Shown in pieces: positions 2,585 through 59,323 of a DNA stretch of 64,000 bases (positions within the stretch are counted from its first letter, which is position 1; every line of letters begins with the position of its first letter). Source of the DNA: Methanoculleus methanifontis (lineage in GTDB: Archaea; Halobacteriota; Methanomicrobia; Methanomicrobiales; Methanoculleaceae). The position numbers were made by a program, and so were the translations under genes. Where the stretch lies: assembly GCF_030464365.1 (NCBI RefSeq), contig NZ_VCYI01000007.1, positions 62,001-126,000 on the forward strand. The letters run 5' to 3'. The notes below the pieces were generated by a model that worked only from the letters and a program-made list of their open reading frames with translations, was not told where the DNA came from and made no database searches.

Positions 2585-3080
2585 ATGGGGTGGGGACGTT
2601 ACATGTCACATCCAGGCATGCGATCCATAGGGAGTGCGACGCCTGGGAACGCAATAGACCGGTCGCCCGAAATAGGGGGAGGTCTTCGTTTTTTTGTGGG
2701 TATTAGCGGGAAGATAAACCGTGGGAAATCCCGTAGAGTGGATCTTGGGAATATCGCCGTTGGGGGGTGGGGACAGGGGAGGGGGGGCATGCCCCCCTCC
2801 CCGTCAGCCCCTCCCCTATGGCGATATCCAATGGAAATCCGTGTACTGGGGTTTGCAATGTTCCAACGAACGGCTGGAGTATATAGGCACAACCCCCTCT
2901 GGTCCCTCGCTGCACGGCTCTCCACATGGCCTAGAGAGGTGCGATCGTGTGCCCCCCGCCCCCGCACCTTCGGTGCTCCTGCTCCGTTCCGTCGGAACGT
3001 CGCACCCTCCGGCCCATCGCACCCCATGGCCCGCCAACCTCGTCTCCACAGCTGCGTATTTGACGGATCATGCCCCAAGT
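2585..3080. repeat. Modular hairpin intergenic element, copy A
   Basis: This gene-free stretch between two divergent genes carries a near-symmetrical block around 2745-2832. ATATCGCC and GGCGATATCC arms flank a perfect palindrome of six G, CATG and six C at 2782-2797. The core TATGGCGATATCC followed by ATGGAAATCCGTGTA (2817-2845) recurs in copies D and E. Hairpin GCACCTTCGGTGC (2964-2976) is followed by linker CTCCTGCTCCG and hairpin GTTCCGTCGGAAC (2986-2998). Translations here are low-complexity shadows in all frames. The promoter for the downstream pth2 gene must also lie in the last part of this stretch. Confidence 0.7.
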
Positions 3081-6239: not shown

Positions 6240-6525
6240 GGAAGCGTGGCGGATGGGCGTTGCAGCCCGCATCCCGACGCTGCTCAAACTGTGCCCCTTC
6301 AACTTTCGCGGCTTCGCGTTCTTCGAAGACCTTCGGTCTTCTCAAACTCCGGATGTCCCATCCGTCGCACTTCGCGTGAGGCCGTATCATCGCCTATAAA
6401 CTGTTAGCTCACGCGAAGTGCGACTGGCCGAAGGGTGCGACTGCCGGAACGGCAGGAGCATGAGAAAACGCGAAGCGTTTTCGGGGCAGGAGCATGAGAA
6501 GACCGAAGGTCTTCGAAGAACGACA
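6240..6525. repeat. Nested inverted repeat with hairpin-linker modules, copy B
   Basis: This stretch lies between the convergent phosphatidyltransferase and artA genes. A perfect 28-base inverted repeat pairs 6317-6344 with 6495-6522. Inside it a perfect 17-base inverted repeat pairs 6364-6380 with 6408-6424 and contains CACTTCGCGTGAG. Further hairpins are CTGCCGGAACGGCAG (6441-6455) and AAAACGC-GAA-GCGTTTT (6465-6481). The linker CAGGAGCATGAG occurs at 6453-6464 and 6487-6498. No coding frame is credible. Confidence 0.8.
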
Positions 6526-7514: not shown

Positions 7515-7826
7515 ATGTTCTGTCCACAGTGCAAAGGTCTGATGATATCGTCTGGTGGTCAGCTGAAATGCAAAAAATGTGGCTATATTCGGGATATTGA
7601 TGACTCGGACCGGTTAAAGAAGACAGACAAACGCGTGGAGAAAGAGATCACCATCGTCGACGAAGAGGACAAGATAGCGACCCTCCCTACCGCGACCATC
7701 AAGTGCCCGGAGTGCGACTGCACGACGGCTTTCTGGTGGCTGCGACAGCTGCGTGCGGCGGATGAGAGCGAGGTCAGGTTCTTCCGGTGCACCGCCTGCG
7801 GCAAGACCTGGCGCGAGTACGATTAG
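7515..7826 (+). CDS. tfs: Transcription factor S (TFIIS/RPB9-like RNA cleavage factor)
   Basis: A 103-residue archaeal transcript-cleavage factor that inserts into the RNA polymerase funnel and rescues backtracked complexes. The N-terminal zinc ribbon has Cys3, Cys6, Cys19 and Cys22 (CPQC, CKKC). The C-terminal zinc ribbon has Cys64, Cys67, Cys92 and Cys95 (CPEC, CTAC). The acidic tip Asp83-Glu84 in QLRAADESE is the pair that coordinates catalytic Mg2+, so cleavage activity is expected. ATG codons at 7512 and 7515 are adjacent; the second gives the usual MFCPQC start. An AT-rich stretch just upstream suggests a short leader. Confidence 0.94.
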   Translation: MFCPQCKGLMISSGGQLKCKKCGYIRDIDDSDRLKKTDKRVEKEITIVDEEDKIATLPTATIKCPECDCTTAFWWLRQLRAADESEVRFFRCTACGKTWREYD

Positions 7827-7849
7827 GCTGGAGCCGTTTAATTGATGTT

Positions 7850-7871
7850 GCCCCTTTAGGGGCGTATTTTT
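7850..7871 (+). terminator. Hairpin plus T-run after tfs
   Basis: GCCCC-TTTA-GGGGC (7850-7863) is followed within four bases by T5 (7867-7871), 24 bases after the tfs stop. This is a good intrinsic-terminator shape. Confidence 0.7.
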
Positions 7872-8160
7872 CTTCCGATCGCGGTTTGTACTATGTAGCG
7901 GCATCTGTCCCGCGAACCCATTTTCCTACAGGTTCCACTTTTCACTCGCGCATCACATTCTGCTTTCGGGAGCCACCTGTTGTTCGCCTGCATCGTTCTC
8001 AGGGATTCTGCGGCGCGCGGGCCCGTTAGGATGCCCGCGTCCACGAGCGCATCAAGTATCCACAATGTCCCGTGGCATTCCCCTCCTCCTGGTGCGGTCC
8101 CGGCAATCATTCCCGGCCACGACCGCTCTGCCGAATCCGTCCTCTCAACCAGAATGTTGA
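7872..8160. other. Gene-free leader region before acs
   Basis: About 290 bases with no credible reading frame on either strand. The left part holds nothing recognisable. The right end becomes AT-rich and runs into the acs promoter and palindrome. Confidence 0.6.
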
Positions 8161-22689: not shown

Positions 22690-23340
22690 CGGCCCGGCAG
22701 ATGCCGCCTTCTTCTCCGGTCAGCGACTATAGGGGCTCCCATAGTTCGAGGGCCATGCCTGCGGCAGGCTAACCCGGATGCTTTCGTTACGAACCGAATT
22801 ACGTTGCGCATCAACCCGCGTTCATGACAAAAAAATAGCCTGGGGAGAAGATTTCCATTATCGGACCCCTTTGAAGCCCTATTTCGGCTGTCATTCTTCC
22901 CTGACGAGATTGGTGCTGAACTCGGCTCGTCCCGGGACGACTTTTTTTTTCTCGGGCATCTCCGCATGCCGTGGATCGTGGTGGCCTGCGCACCTTCGGT
23001 GCTCGAATTCCCGCCGTGCCGCCGGTCGTTTATCGCCATGGGGGTGGGGCTGACGGGGAGTGCGATGTTCCGATAGGAACGGAGCATGAGCACCAATAGG
23101 TGCGAGGGGGTCTCCCCCTCCCCTGTCTCGCGCGAAGAACCGCATATCTCAGGCTCCACCCCGCCCGCGCTTCGCGCTCCTCCCCCTTCCTGCGGGCGGG
23201 GGCAGTCATGGCGATAAGCGATGGTTCGGAGAACCTGAGCTAGAGCACCGAAGGTGTGAACCCGGTGGAAAGCCGTACCCCGGAGTGCGGCCATCTGGAA
23301 CAAGCAGTGGGGTTCCAACAAAGCTGAAAAAGAGAGATTT
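22690..23340. repeat. Modular hairpin intergenic element, copy C
   Basis: A 680-base gene-free gap between convergent genes. Hairpin GCACCTTCGGTGC (about 22988-23000) is followed by CTCGAATTCCCG. GTTCC-GATA-GGAAC (23067-23080) is joined by GGAGCATGAG to GCACC-AATA-GGTGC (23090-23103). The stretch TTATCGCCATGGGGGTGGGG with TGACGGGGAG (about 23030-23060) is the complement of the shared core seen in copy A. A GAGGGGG/CCCCCTC inverted repeat follows at about 23104-23120. No frame shows coding character. Confidence 0.65.
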
Positions 23341-39615: not shown

Positions 39616-39639
39616 ACAGAGGCGGAACTCACAACCGAA

Positions 39640-39905
39640 CTGGTCTTCGCGGCTTCGCGTTCTTCGCGTGAGGACCTGTCCTTCTCTTTGTACGTTATCT
39701 CACGCGAAGCCGCGAAGGACGCGAAGAGCGACATTCCGGGGCGCGAGCCCCCCTTCCCCAGGGCGATATCCCCTTGAAATCCGCGTCTGGAACGCAATTC
39801 AAAGTCTCGCATGAGCACTATAGGCGAGAATCGCAACGATTCATGAGTTTGACTGGTGCGAGCATCGTGGGCGGCAGGAGTTTGAGAAGCCGTTAGGCTT
39901 CGAGG
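39640..39905. repeat. Modular hairpin intergenic element, copy D
   Basis: It lies between convergent htrA-like and nitroreductase genes. CTTCGCGTGAG (39662-39672) pairs with CTCACGCGAAG (39699-39709), flanked by more GCGGCTTCGCG-type sequence. The shared core GGCGATATCCCCTTGAAATC is at about 39762-39781 and continues CGCGTC. The linker CAGGAGTTTGAG (39875-39886) overlaps hairpin GAAGCC-GTTA-GGCTTC (39886-39901). GAATCG/CGATTC forms another small stem near 39828-39843. No coding frame is credible. Confidence 0.7.
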
Positions 39906-39954
39906 TGCGAAGTCCGCGATAACTGCTTCCCTTCGCGGTCACTACCGGTCCCGG

Positions 39955-42532: not shown

Positions 42533-42604
42533 AGGGTTGTTGCGGCCTCATGGTTGTTTTATAGGATTGTAATGGGCATTTCACCGTTCATGTGTGTTCC
42601 GGTG

Positions 42605-43040
42605 CAGATCGCCATCTCACGCGAAGTGCGCGAAGTCCGTGGAATTGTTTCGCCCTCCTTAGCACCTTGACAGTGCTCGAACTCCTTTTCCTGCGGGAAA
42701 GTCGTTCTTCCCGGCTTCGCGTGAGTTGACGGAATGCTACGTAAAATAGGTCGCGGTTTGGGGCATCTCAAGTCCCATGCACGGATTTCAAGTGGATGTC
42801 GCCATTGGGGGAGGGGTTTCAGGGGAGGGGGGCAAGCCCCCCTCCCCTGTCCCCAATTCGCACCTTCGGTGCTCAAACTCCTGTCCTTCGGACAGTCATT
42901 CCCCCCACGGCGATACTCTCACGGTCCACTGCATCGGGATATTTCCTCGCTCCACTCGCTTTGTTTGTCGCATAATGAAGGCTTTCAGCCTTCTCGAACT
43001 CCTGCCTCGGAACCCTTCCAGTTCTCAAGCTCCTGTTCTG
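42605..43040. repeat. Modular hairpin intergenic element, copy E
   Basis: The gap 42533-43166 holds no gene. CTCACGCGAAG (42616-42626) pairs with CTTCGCGTGAG (42715-42725). Four hairpin-linker units follow one pattern. AGCAC...GTGCT (42661-42677) precedes CTCGAACTCCTT; GCACCTTCGGTGC (42860-42872) precedes CTCAAACTCCTG; AAGGCT-TTC-AGCCTT (42979-42993) precedes CTCGAACTCCTG; and a GAAC/GTTC stem precedes CTCAAGCTCCTG (43025-43036). CTGTCCTTCGGACAG (42881-42895) is a further hairpin. A perfect 13-base GC stem with an AA centre lies at 42821-42848, beside the shared core in reverse orientation (42781-42805). Confidence 0.75.
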
Positions 43041-43166
43041 CGAATCATCACGTAACGAATCGTAGCACGTTCCGACAGTCGCAACTCGCATCAAGTGCGT
43101 TCAGGGTGAAAATCCGTGTCCGGAAGCGCACATGAACAGAACGGCATTCCTGGGAACACCTGTTCA

Positions 43167-43526
43167 TCACCACCGCCGCCCTCTCCTGTCGTACACCCCC
43201 GGCATGGCCTCCCGGACGGCGGCGAGCGTCTCCGGCAGGAGCGTGCCTTTCTTTCCGACGACGTCCGCCGTCCGGATGGTGGCTGCGTACGTGGTCAGGG
43301 CGAAACTCTCAGCGAAGAGGTCGAGGCCGCCCCGGGCGAAGTCGTCGAGCGAGAGGGGAACTGAGATTCCGTCGGTGGACGGGCTGCTTGAGACCGGGCA
43401 GATCAGCAGGCTCCCGCTCTCTCCTGCAGAAACAACCACCACCGGGCGCACCTTCCGTTTGCCCCCTCCCCCGAGACGCACGGGGGCTAAAACGACGTCG
43501 CCGCTGGCGTACCGTCCCATGTGCAT
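43167..43526 (-). CDS. MazF/PemK-like toxin-fold protein, solitary
   Basis: A 119-residue protein resembling the MazF/PemK ribonuclease fold: MGRYASGDVVLAPVRLGG near the start, KRKVRPVVVVSAGESGSLLI near 24-43 and CPVSSSPSTDGISVPL near 44-59, as in toxins with the RPxxVLS core and a following CPIT-type strand. It would cut mRNA if active. No small antitoxin frame overlaps it or lies directly upstream; the upstream gene is a PKD protein 90 bases away. It may therefore be an orphan, a non-toxic homolog, or be controlled in trans. Confidence 0.68.
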   Translation of the reverse strand: MHMGRYASGDVVLAPVRLGGGGKRKVRPVVVVSAGESGSLLICPVSSSPSTDGISVPLSLDDFARGGLDLFAESFALTTYAATIRTADVVGKKGTLLPETLAAVREAMPGVYDRRGRRW

Positions 43527-47043: not shown

Positions 47044-49443
47044 ATGCACGTACGCAAGCCCGCATGCGGCGATATTTCTGCGCACACCGCTATTCTGGAT
47101 GCGCTCGATGAGGGGCTGCTCGTCGTCGATTCCGATAACCGGGTAGCCTGCGTCAACAGGCACCTCCGCCACCTTCTCGAAATCGATCAGGACGCTGTCT
47201 GCGGGACGGATGCAGTTCAATTTTTCCGCCGGACGCTGGCGCCCCGAATCTACGAGGATTCAGGGAGGGCAATGATCCTGGCGTCCCTCTCCGACCTCTC
47301 CCGGGCTGCAAACGTCCTGTGCACGCTACGATCGTCCAGCGGTGCAGAAGAGCGGGTCTGCTGCTCATGCAGGGTTGTTGAAGAAGGGCCGTTTCAGGGC
47401 ATGCGGATCATCCGCTTCTCTCCCGAACCCTTCGAGATCCAGGGCTGCCCTGTTCCCGGCGCCCTGGTTCCTCCGGGCGGCGGTCAGGAGAGGCTCATGG
47501 ATACTCCCCAGCAGAGGCGGATGGAAGAGATCCTGCGGGAGAGCGAGGACCGGTACCGGTTCCTCGTCGAGAACCTCAACGAGGCCATCGGGGTGATCAA
47601 CAGGGAGGGCGTTGCGGTCTTTGCTAACCAGAAATTGGCCGAAACCATCGGCTACCCGGTCGCCGAAATCATTGGAGAGCCGGTTTCTCTCTTCGTCGAC
47701 GAGGTGGATGCCGGGTGCCTGGTGGAGTACCTGCAGAACCTGGACCTGAACATGCGCGAGGTCTTTGAGATCGATCTGATCCGTAAAGACGGTGGTCGCG
47801 TACATACGCTGATGGCAACCACCCCGATCGTCGACGCCGACGGCACCTGCAGAGGATTCCTTGCCGGGATTCAGGATATCACCGCCTTAAAGCAGATGGA
47901 GGCAAAACTCCGGGAGAGCGAGGAGAAGTATCGATTGCTCGTTGAACTCTCCGCTGAAGCGACCCTGATTCACCGCGACGGGAAGATCATATTCACCAAT
48001 CCCGCCGGCATGAGGCTCCTCGGCGCTTCACGCCCGGAAGAAGTCCTCGGGAAGGCTATCCTTGATATCGTCCACCCGGACGCCCGGGAGATTGTCGAGG
48101 CCTTCTCCGCGCGGGATCTCCAGGGAGAGGAGACGCCGCTCATCGAGCTGCTGGTTGTCAGGCTTGACGGGACGACGGTCCCCATCGAGGGGAGGGGCAC
48201 CCGAACGGTTTTTGAGGGGCGGCCCGCGGTTCAGGTCGTTATGCGGGACGTCACCTACCGCAAGCAGGCAGAGGAGCAGGTGCAGATACGGAACCGCCAC
48301 CTCCTGCTGCTGAACAGGATCATCGGCACATCAGCATCGGCCCGGACATCCGACGAACTGCTTGAGAAGGCGCTCAACCAGACGCTTGACCTGCTCGATT
48401 ATGACAGCGGCGCCGTTTACCGGATCGATGCCGGGCAGCGGGAGGCAACTCTCCGGTGCCGGCGCAACATGCCGGATGTGTTCCTGGAGCAGGCAGAGGA
48501 GATCCTGGGAGTGTCGTTTGCTGAAACCCTCGCGGCCGGCCTCCCTTGCTACCTTGAGCAGGATCGCGGCCCGAGCGCCTCCGGGTCGCATCTCCTCCGG
48601 GAACTCGGGCTTGCCGCACTCGCCTGCATCCCGCTCGTCGTCGAGTCCGACGTCGTCGGGATGCTCCTCCTCGGGAACAGGGAGAGGGGATCGTTCTCTC
48701 ATGACGAGCACGCTCTCCTCGAAGCGGTCGGCCGGGAGATCGGGATCGGTATCATGCGAGGGATGCTCTACCGGAGGCTTGAGGTGGCGAACCGGGAGGC
48801 GAACCTCTACCTCGACATCCTCACTCATGATATCCGGAACGCCGACAACGTCGCAAACATCTACGCCGATATCCTCATCGACGAGCTCGAGGGGGAGGCG
48901 GCCCGGCATGCCCGGAAGTTGAAGGACGGGATCAGGAAGAGCATCGAGATCACCGCAAACGTCGCTACCATCCGCAAGATCCACGAGACCCGGGCCGGAC
49001 TTACGCCCCTTGATCTCGATAACGTGATCAGGGAGGAACTCGCTCACTTCCCCGACCTCTGTATCCACTACGATGGGGTACCGGTGACAGTTCTCGCCGA
49101 CGATCTCCTGCCCCAGGTCTTCACAAACCTCATCGGCAACGCCACAAAGCACGGCGGGCCGGGTGTCGAGGTCACGGTGGCGGTCGAGGATCTGGATGAA
49201 AGGACCGTCATCGTCACCGTTGCCGACACCGGCCCCGGTATCCCGGAGGACGCGAAGGAGGCGATCTTCTTCCGGTTCGAGCGGGAGGGCGGCCAGCGGG
49301 GGAGCCAGGGCCTCGGCCTCTCGATCTGCCGCATGCTTACTGCACGCTACGGCGGCGGGATCTGGGTCGAAGACCGGGTTCCGGAGCAGGGCGCGGCGTT
49401 CCGGTTCACCCTCAGGAAGGCCGGACGCAGGAAGTGTGCTTAA
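47044..49443 (+). CDS. PAS/GAF sensor histidine kinase
   Basis: A 799-residue cytoplasmic kinase without transmembrane helices. Three PAS domains lie at about residues 12-130, 150-285 (RFLVENLNEAIGVINREG) and 290-410 (RLLVELSAEATLIHRDG). A GAF domain covers about 430-570 (LLEKALNQTLDLLDYDSGA). The phosphoacceptor His595 is in LDILTHDIRNADNVANIYAD. The ATP-binding domain has LPQVFTNLIGNATKHGG near 688-704, DTGPGIPEDAKEAIF and GLGLSICRML. It is complete and should autophosphorylate. No response regulator is present nearby. It sits between CopB- and ZntA-type ATPases, so metal sensing is possible but unproven. Confidence 0.93.
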   Translation: MHVRKPACGDISAHTAILDALDEGLLVVDSDNRVACVNRHLRHLLEIDQDAVCGTDAVQFFRRTLAPRIYEDSGRAMILASLSDLSRAANVLCTLRSSSGAEERVCCSCRVVEEGPFQGMRIIRFSPEPFEIQGCPVPGALVPPGGGQERLMDTPQQRRMEEILRESEDRYRFLVENLNEAIGVINREGVAVFANQKLAETIGYPVAEIIGEPVSLFVDEVDAGCLVEYLQNLDLNMREVFEIDLIRKDGGRVHTLMATTPIVDADGTCRGFLAGIQDITALKQMEAKLRESEEKYRLLVELSAEATLIHRDGKIIFTNPAGMRLLGASRPEEVLGKAILDIVHPDAREIVEAFSARDLQGEETPLIELLVVRLDGTTVPIEGRGTRTVFEGRPAVQVVMRDVTYRKQAEEQVQIRNRHLLLLNRIIGTSASARTSDELLEKALNQTLDLLDYDSGAVYRIDAGQREATLRCRRNMPDVFLEQAEEILGVSFAETLAAGLPCYLEQDRGPSASGSHLLRELGLAALACIPLVVESDVVGMLLLGNRERGSFSHDEHALLEAVGREIGIGIMRGMLYRRLEVANREANLYLDILTHDIRNADNVANIYADILIDELEGEAARHARKLKDGIRKSIEITANVATIRKIHETRAGLTPLDLDNVIREELAHFPDLCIHYDGVPVTVLADDLLPQVFTNLIGNATKHGGPGVEVTVAVEDLDERTVIVTVADTGPGIPEDAKEAIFFRFEREGGQRGSQGLGLSICRMLTARYGGGIWVEDRVPEQGAAFRFTLRKAGRRKCA

Positions 49444-49516
49444 GGTGCCCGGATTTCTCCCAGGGTGCCGGAGAAGGCCCTGATATCTGAATAACTTCGT
49501 CTCTTTTTCCGCGGTT

Positions 49517-58085: not shown

Positions 58086-58331
58086 TCAGTGCTCTTTTTT
58101 GAGCAGCATCCAGTGATACCCCCAGACAATGAGCCCCACCACGACCTGCGCCACGCTCCCGGGAAGTTCGGGGTAGTAGTGCGGCACCGGGTAGGGCTGG
58201 GGGGCCGGGTAGACGAAGACCTCGACTGCGATAGCAAGGAGGCTCACGCCACCCAGGATCGCGACGATGAGTGCGATGAACGAGACGGCGTAGAGGTAGG
58301 CCTTCCACGCCGTGAGACCCTCAGGCACCAC
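58086..58331 (-). CDS. Small two-helix membrane protein
   Basis: An 81-residue membrane protein. Helices are YLYAVSFIALIVAILGGVSL near residues 12-31 and VAQVVVGLIVWGYHWMLLKK near 60-79, with a proline-rich loop PAPQPYPVPHYYPELPG between them. The GxxxWGYHW end resembles the DUF5671-like family, an assignment made by eye only. It begins two bases after the stop of the PGF-CTERM lipoprotein gene on the same strand, so the two are co-transcribed and may act together in the envelope. Confidence 0.6.
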   Translation of the reverse strand: MVPEGLTAWKAYLYAVSFIALIVAILGGVSLLAIAVEVFVYPAPQPYPVPHYYPELPGSVAQVVVGLIVWGYHWMLLKKEH

Positions 58332-58333
58332 GC

Positions 58334-59323
58334 CTATTTCCTCCGTCTCAAAAACCCGGCGCCGATGAGCCCGGCGGCGGCGAGCCCGACGGTAAACCCG
58401 GGTGAGTACGTCGGTGTCGGCGCACCGCTGCTCTGCACCCTGAACTGCCCGACCTGCGCGGAGGACGGCTTTCCAGGGGTGGGAGCCGGTGTCGAGAGAG
58501 CGACCGGCGATGTGCTCTTCGCGGGGCTGAAGACCGCACCGTCGGCGAGGATCACCTGCGGCGGCGGTGCCAGGGTGATCCGGCCGGTGCTGGTTGCAAA
58601 CGCCGCGCCGTCCTCGACGAGCCGGATGCGGATCTCGTAATCATAGCCGTTCGGCACCGCGATGCTCACCCTTTTTTCGGCGCCCAGGTCACCGGGAACC
58701 GTCCCGAGCGGCCGGGACTCACGGACGGCCGTGATCCCCGTCTGGAGGTTGACCGCCCGGATCTCCATCACGAGGTTCCCGGAAGCGCTGCCGCTGTTCG
58801 CGATCCAGGTGATGATATCGAGCGTGATCGGGTCGGCGTCAATGTCGGGGGTCATGACATCGATCGCGGAGACGGTGAGGAGCGAGTAGGCCAGTCGTTG
58901 CGTGGCGACTGTCCTGTCGGGGAGGAAGACGTTCACCGAACCCGACTCCCGCATACGCCCGTCCTGCCAGATCGTCACCCAGATATCGTAACCCCGGCCG
59001 TTCTCGAGCGTGAGCGTGATCTCCTCCTTCGCCGTCCTCCCCGACGCCAGGGTGCCGATGGAGCGAACCGTCTCCTCGACGACGATATCCGTCCCGGCCT
59101 CTTTTGCAATGACCTGCAGGTCGACGCCGTCTACATCCGCGTAGACCGCGTCGAGGTAGGGGACCGCTGTGACCCGCGTGACGTTCGACGGCGGCTGGCC
59201 GTCCGGGATGCTGATGTCGACGCTCCGAATCGTCACGTAGCCCGCCTGGGGCTGGGATGATACGCATCCGGCTGCGAGCACCAGGAAGAGGAGCACGACG
59301 ACCACACCGAATAACCTTCTCAT
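58334..59323 (-). CDS. Surface lipoprotein with both lipobox and PGF-CTERM signal
   Basis: A 329-residue exported protein. The N-terminus MRRLFGVVVVLLFLVLAAGC ends in a lipobox (LAAGC) at Cys20. The body has repeated immunoglobulin-like strands (YVTIRSVDISIPDGQPPSN, TKEEITLTLENG-type segments, SAIDVMTPDIDADPITLDII). The C-terminus is a Ser/Thr/Pro spacer, then YSPGFTVGLAAAGLIGAGFL and RRRK, a PGF-CTERM type signal. It would be lipid-anchored at Cys20 and also a candidate archaeosortase substrate. It heads a two-gene operon with the small membrane protein. Function beyond envelope association is unknown. Confidence 0.82.
   Translation of the reverse strand: MRRLFGVVVVLLFLVLAAGCVSSQPQAGYVTIRSVDISIPDGQPPSNVTRVTAVPYLDAVYADVDGVDLQVIAKEAGTDIVVEETVRSIGTLASGRTAKEEITLTLENGRGYDIWVTIWQDGRMRESGSVNVFLPDRTVATQRLAYSLLTVSAIDVMTPDIDADPITLDIITWIANSGSASGNLVMEIRAVNLQTGITAVRESRPLGTVPGDLGAEKRVSIAVPNGYDYEIRIRLVEDGAAFATSTGRITLAPPPQVILADGAVFSPAKSTSPVALSTPAPTPGKPSSAQVGQFRVQSSGAPTPTYSPGFTVGLAAAGLIGAGFLRRRK

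Follow-up and report, generated by a model that had tools for sequence, protein, structure and literature searches.

The GC clusters of yeast mitochondrial DNA (GC42) are GC-rich palindromic sequences of about 42 nt that are bounded by AG/ACT direct repeats resembling target duplications, differ in presence and absence at orthologous sites, merge and are shuffled; they have no known dedicated enzyme, and the mechanism of their movement is unresolved (PMC4478555). Dispersed intergenic elements made of adjacent hairpins, for which mobility has been proposed, are described for the double-hairpin elements of Allomyces mtDNA and the hairpin elements of sponges (PMC2800124; PMC5910586, in which the Allomyces study is cited). 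The REP, BIME and REPIN sequences with their RAYT proteins are high-copy intergenic hairpins that form dimers and mosaics, and REP/REPIN elements are defined by a GTAG or CGTC tag at the foot of the hairpin (PMC3733652). Finally, Hirao and colleagues report that GNA or GNNA loops, together with at least two G-C pairs, give extraordinarily stable DNA mini-hairpins (PMC4686876).

The window analysed here is a 64,000-nt stretch (G000:C28:62001-126000) of a 2.61-Mb archaeal genome, G000, in which a preliminary description had pointed out five intergenic elements, A to E, said to consist of short hairpins joined by a nearly constant 12-base linker, with at least eight hairpin-linker units visible. 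All five are there, and four of them do lie between convergent genes, the exception being element A, which occupies a divergent gap. The linker CTCRWRCTCCTG has seven matches in the window, one of which (31444) is outside elements A to E, and 64 in the whole genome, well above the 15 of a reversed-pattern control; a single stem type, GAGCACC-N3/4-GGTGCGA, has 147 copies in the genome, with a control of 0, and the units in the intergenic gaps appear to number in the hundreds. With a covariance model of the repeat (R1), nine good matches were obtained in the window (E 3.6e-15 to 1.4e-4), all within elements A to E, plus a weak match at 43010-43083. No Methanoculleus repeat family was found in the literature. 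We think it likely, with a probability of about two in three, that the unit is a non-autonomous mobile double-hairpin which is recognised by its fold and inserts at GANN with a 4-bp duplication.

Parsing of about 1 Mb from seven genomes gave 219 units, 171 of them distinct, and 159 were used in the statistics. On the strand complementary to the linker as it was first written (the GA strand), the unit consists of a 3-nt stem, GA, hairpin H2, GA, the 3-nt stem partner, N, GA and hairpin H1, or x4-GA-H2-GA-y4-GA-H1-GA, and measures 40-49 nt (mostly 41, 42 or 45) when counted from base 2 of x through the last base of H1. Stem-loop 1 is a 3-bp stem, a GA/GA tandem mismatch and a 5-7-bp H2; stem-loop 2 is the 5-8-bp H1. 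The linker does recur genome-wide, but it is not a constant spacer: it is half of a covarying stem across the GA/GA internal loop, and a second junction after H2 (RTCGYWY on the linker's strand) is as constant as the linker and covaries with it. Base x3 pairs with y2 in 142 of the 159 units (shuffle mean 89, max 108) and x2 with y3 in 114 (mean 55, max 73), and the partners vary together as GTGC/GCAT, GAAC/GTTC, GCGC/GCGT, AAGC/GCTC and others. This is a fair test because the linker half, y, was not selected for pairing, and H2 therefore possesses an outer 3-bp stem. AGGAG followed by ATG, with its hint of a Shine-Dalgarno sequence and start codon, is unlikely to be a signal for translation: the ATG is present in only 35 of the 159 units, because these bases pair and change together with the upstream GTGC, GAAC or GCGC.

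An alignment of 30 sequences has 79 two-sided changes, against 24 when shuffled, and a covariation score of 0.533, against 0.154 shuffled and at most 0.065 when the partners are slid by 1-3 columns. The rows were picked almost all without H1/H2 stem mismatches, so that the H1/H2 covariation is biased upward, and the shuffles leave relatedness in; the x-y part is unaffected by this choice. Compensatory change is thus far above both the shuffled and the slid controls, in agreement with the earlier suggestion of selection on structure, and pairing is kept, with different stems, in related genomes.

The folded strand can be told from the stem mismatches, which on the GA strand are 25 G.T and 3 A.C (in stems located through the linker only); the opposite strand would swap these counts, so the GA strand is the folded one. 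Its loops are of the GNA or GNNA form in 137 of 159 H1 hairpins (80 GNA and 57 GNNA) and 104 of 159 H2 hairpins, and the complementary loop rule is satisfied by 0 H1 and 5 H2. Other hairpins have a G..A loop less often: among those in ORF sequence with a closing C-G pair, counted on either strand, it is found in 33% of the triloops and 18% of the tetraloops. A search of other species with a pattern that left the loop free mostly recovered the same loops. The closing pair of H1 is C-G in all 159 units, and 47 of the 57 GNNA loops of H1 carry C or T in third position; these are therefore not RNA GNRA loops, and RNA loops of the GNRA/UNCG kinds are ruled out by these GNA/GNNA forms and their mostly pyrimidine third base. 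The loop rule is shared with DNA mini-hairpins such as d(GCGAAGC) (PMC4686876), where it was learnt from oligonucleotides; here it is the rule of a genomic repeat family. As far as loop sequences can tell, the rule favours folded DNA over RNA. The GA strand is the more stable one in 152 of 159 units with both energy parameter sets, a comparison that cannot separate DNA from RNA because neither set knows GNA loops (the ViennaRNA DNA set gives them no bonus).

The units of the window may be placed as follows. Element A has a unit at 2958..3005 (minus strand; H1 GCACC-GAA-GGTGC; R1 E 1.5e-14). Element B has a 45-nt unit at 6325..6369 (minus; H2 CGGATG-GGA-CATCCG, H1 GAAGACC-GAA-GGTCTTC), which is absent from the relatives G030 and G019, and a composite at 6435..6520 (plus) with H2 CTGCCG-GAA-CGGCAG followed by two H1 hairpins (GAAAACGC and GAAGACC) and repeated linkers. 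Element C has three, at 22984..23031 (minus; R1 E 2.4e-10), 23060..23109 (plus; H2 loop GATA) and 23216..23263 (plus), the last adjoining an TGGCGATA end motif and having a sister copy on contig C12 that is bounded by GATA on both sides. Element D, an insertion at 39616..39954 (no strand assigned), contains one unit at 39856..39907 (plus; H1 GAAGCC-GTTA-GGCTTC). Element E is a mosaic insertion between convergent genes; it had been drawn at 42605-43040, which falls short of its edges, and comparison of relatives puts it at about 42533..43167 (no strand assigned). It holds a complete unit at 42854..42901 (minus; H2 CTGTCC-GAA-GGACAG, H1 GCACC-GAA-GGTGC; GAAT flanks) that is not at that place in G014 and G003, a partly decayed one at 42656..42707 (minus; R1 E 4.6e-10) and a degraded third, the weak match at 43010..43083 (minus; R1 E 4e-4). 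Double-hairpin units are hosted by larger palindromes of mosaic build (2745-2860, 22960-23220 and 42780-42930), the ends of which resemble GCACGGATTTC..GGATATCGCCATTGGGGG; these palindromes are rich in G4 and C4 runs (G-quadruplex-like) and look like a second repeat family.

The earlier suggestion of hairpin-generating mobility is supported by 4-bp target duplications in the flanks, empty sites in relatives and nested copies. The clean case is the 45-nt unit of element B, where the window reads CACGC-GAAG-[45 nt]-GAAG-AACGCG and G030 reads CACGC-GAAG-AACGCG, the two GAAG copies being at 6370..6373 (5' copy) and 6321..6324 (3' copy) on the minus strand. A second filled/empty pair (G014 against G030) again has GAAG doubled, and both of its hairpins have other stems. 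The duplication is unambiguous in these two single-unit pairs only, the remaining events being in G-runs or ambiguous. On a larger scale, 59 of 184 units with distinct flanks carry an identical 4-mer on their two sides in a single register, where shuffles give 28 on average and 42 at most, with counts of 0-2 in the neighbouring registers; the repeated 4-mers are GAAG 47 times, GAGG 8, GATA 2 and GAGC 2. A stricter set, free of neighbouring units and with identical flanks collapsed, still has 16 of 79 (mean 5.9, max 12, 0/5000 shuffles). When the flanks are joined and one repeat copy is removed, the host repeat CGAAGCCGCGAAGAACGCGAAG results, which is uninterrupted at many other loci. Eight copies, representing at least three independent combinations, are nested in hairpins other than their own, where they split a GAA loop and GAAG is doubled, as in CGTTCC-GAAG[unit]GAAG-GAACG and GCACC-GAAG[unit]GAAG-GTGC. 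The gap of element E is 2-85 bp long in many congeners with the same neighbour genes, including most of the distant ones, and 450-620 bp in the closest relatives, and in the closer relatives its arrangements differ, once with the opposite orientation; the 340 bp of element D are lacking in G003 and G014, where the gap has 12 bp. We infer that insertion, and not precise loss, is behind most of these presence/absence differences. The favoured target of the units is a host repeat made up of CGCGAAG words, in which a short spacer separates CTCACGCGAAGCCGCGAAGAACGCGAAG from its complement; this repeat is found in the window at 6306-6320, 6370-6417, 39650-39730 and 42618-42724 and in many copies in G000, G003 and G012.

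Arrays are also reshaped by ordinary recombination, as indicated by tandem arrays and by the composite of element B, from which G030 lacks 34 nt, linker to linker, a difference that recombination between linkers (a 16-nt repeat) would explain. Apparently young tandem arrays of at least three near-identical 45/46-bp units are present at L019 1455-1640 (C5), at G000:C25:105175-105280 (L039) and at L258. At 6320-6370, comparison with G003 and G033 reveals a swap of hairpin cassettes, in which H2 is the same or different and H1 is exchanged among GAAGACC, GCACC and CACACC types; the stems differ among species, and therefore turnover in place also happens. Two other stretches of the window, 7824-8126 and 49427-49513, have roughly 1.4-3.3 kb and 0.9 kb extra, respectively, in all five relatives compared. 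A different tandem repeat (CCGGTGCCCCACCTCCTGGTGAGGCCCTCCGG..) lies at about 61655 in the orthologous region of G003, in a reversed stretch (about 58325-58356 in the window), and is longer than in the compared species.

In the sampled sequence, units are present in 50 of 115 gaps between convergent genes, in 40 of 219 between tandem genes and in 6 of 127 between divergent genes; only the ratios of these counts matter, because genes were called with a simple codon-usage script and the sample was partly picked around units. Such placement fits insertions that are tolerated downstream of genes. Between tandem genes, the strand that folds coincides with the gene strand in 51 cases and is opposite to it in 41, and this lack of a transcription-strand bias speaks against a cis function in mRNA. 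On the chromosome of G003, copies on one strand are interleaved with copies on the other (27 runs, 23 expected), so no replication-strand preference is visible among the matches listed. The GAGCACC-N3/4-GGTGCGA type is found in 31 of 35 Methanoculleus genomes, at a patchy 0-151 copies per genome, and its control has 0 matches in all genomes searched; G013, G017, G018, G020, G025 and G034 are unit-poor. Of the 150 Methanomicrobiales genomes sampled, 42 have units that R1 detects. Among the matches listed, almost every Methanoculleus genome has many, as does one sister genus, and certain genomes from other families have between one and nine, with a best E of 3e-12; in a class-level genome sample the matches listed are inside Methanomicrobiales only. 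Named public contigs with the module likewise belong to Methanoculleus and other Methanomicrobiales. The family is nearly genus-wide and is rare in the rest of the order.

Two explanations that dispense with a mobile DNA element deserve weighing. The folded molecule could be RNA: the units would then be structured modules that stabilise 3' UTRs, serve as processing sites or give small RNAs, and recombination or an RNA intermediate would have spread them. Folding on one strand that admits G.U-type pairs, with which the G.T tolerance would fit too, compensatory stem changes and enrichment at convergent 3' ends speak for RNA, in which tandem GA mismatches are common. On the other hand, the folded and transcribed strands agree no better than the 51 to 41 above, the GNNA third base is unlike that of GNRA, Rfam 15 has 0 matches above the gathering score in the window, and reverse transcriptase (PF00078) is encoded by 3 of 35 genomes only and is missing from several unit-rich ones; we regard an RNA as unlikely. 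Nor need there be any dedicated mobility if template switching, slippage and short-repeat recombination perfect and multiply palindromes. Stems can become perfectly paired again through template switching in replication, with no selection needed, and the 45/46-bp arrays and the 34-bp linker-to-linker difference with its 16-bp repeat speak for this account, but such processes predict neither the exact 4-bp repeat in one register, nor single units in loops and host repeats, nor the loop rule and the G.T/A.C strand asymmetry, and we find this account quite improbable.

A mobile double-hairpin calls to mind known families of movers. That the units are REP/REPIN-type elements moved by an IS200/IS605-like Y1 (RAYT) transposase seems hardly tenable: they are indeed short, high-copy intergenic hairpins in tandem and inverted dimers, but the foot of both unit hairpins is GA (in clustered hairpins and in the covariance-model alignment) and not a GTAG or CGTC tag, and Y1 transposase (PF01797) is absent from G000 and nearly all unit-rich genomes, being mostly in unit-poor ones. 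The unit-free G020 has 19 Y1 matches, the reverse of the unit-rich genomes. The IS110 (PF02371) and IS4-type DDE (PF01609) transposases, like Y1 and reverse transcriptase, are each missing from several unit-rich genomes, and all four were rejected as the mover. MITEs and the BOX elements of Streptococcus are small, non-autonomous, modular and intergenic, as are the units, which also resemble MITEs in a target duplication of fixed length (4 bp, one register); terminal inverted repeats, with at least four matching end bases, were found in 0 of 159 units. With neither these repeats nor Y1, the unit fits none of the enzyme families tested. No similar phage or plasmid record was found that could be a carrier, and the 12 matches of a short unit pattern in viral contigs are at about chance level by a rough estimate.

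Among the hairpin families described at the outset, the units have in common with REP/BIME/REPIN sequences their high copy number, dimers and mosaics, and differ in having no Y1 transposase and no conserved stems (PMC3733652). In behaviour they are like the GC clusters, with similar size, palindromes, short flanking repeats, presence/absence differences and shuffling; those are mitochondrial with AG/ACT repeats, whereas the units sit on an archaeal chromosome with a 4-bp GANN duplication and have stems that vary freely under strict loop and junction rules (PMC4478555). The 13-nt 5' sequence shared by GC clusters, ACTCCTTCGGGGT, has no match in 302 loci. The Allomyces and sponge elements are likewise adjacent, dispersed, intergenic hairpins (PMC2800124; PMC5910586), and the units differ from them in the GA/GA junction of their two stem-loops, in stems that covary and in nesting within loops; a likeness is claimed here, and not homology. 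We have filed the units as a new variant among mobile hairpin elements.

According to our preferred reading, a mobile double-hairpin, the conserved feature of the roughly 45-nt unit would be its fold more than its sequence. The GA strand would fold into stem-loops 1 and 2 with GNA or GNNA loops, and a trans-acting enzyme probably recognises this folded single-stranded DNA. Insertion would be at 5'-GANN, mostly GAAG, with duplication of those 4 bp, and the preferred targets would be a host repeat rich in GAAG (CACGCGAAGCCGCGAAGAACGCGAAG) and, in units already in place, the GAA loops; elements would thus become larger through nesting, and their hairpins would later be reshuffled as units are copied in tandem and recombine where linkers are repeated. 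More tentatively, the main signal for transposition might be how single-stranded DNA is shaped, as a pair of mini-hairpins whose loops have sheared G.A pairs, together with a GA/GA junction, the stem sequence being free. Such a system would target GNA loops, its own among them, and be driven by an enzyme of a class that is not known to move DNA.

The units account for much of the variation among Methanoculleus species in the gaps that were compared. They behave like the GC clusters and double-hairpins of organelles, and they reside in a free-living archaeon. Genomes with from dozens to more than 100 copies, the many relatives already sequenced and a clear rule for the target make it possible to search for the mover and to test it. 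The units also seem to put to use in nature the DNA mini-hairpin rule, which is known mainly from oligonucleotides, and if this is true, folded single-stranded DNA can itself be the selected entity.
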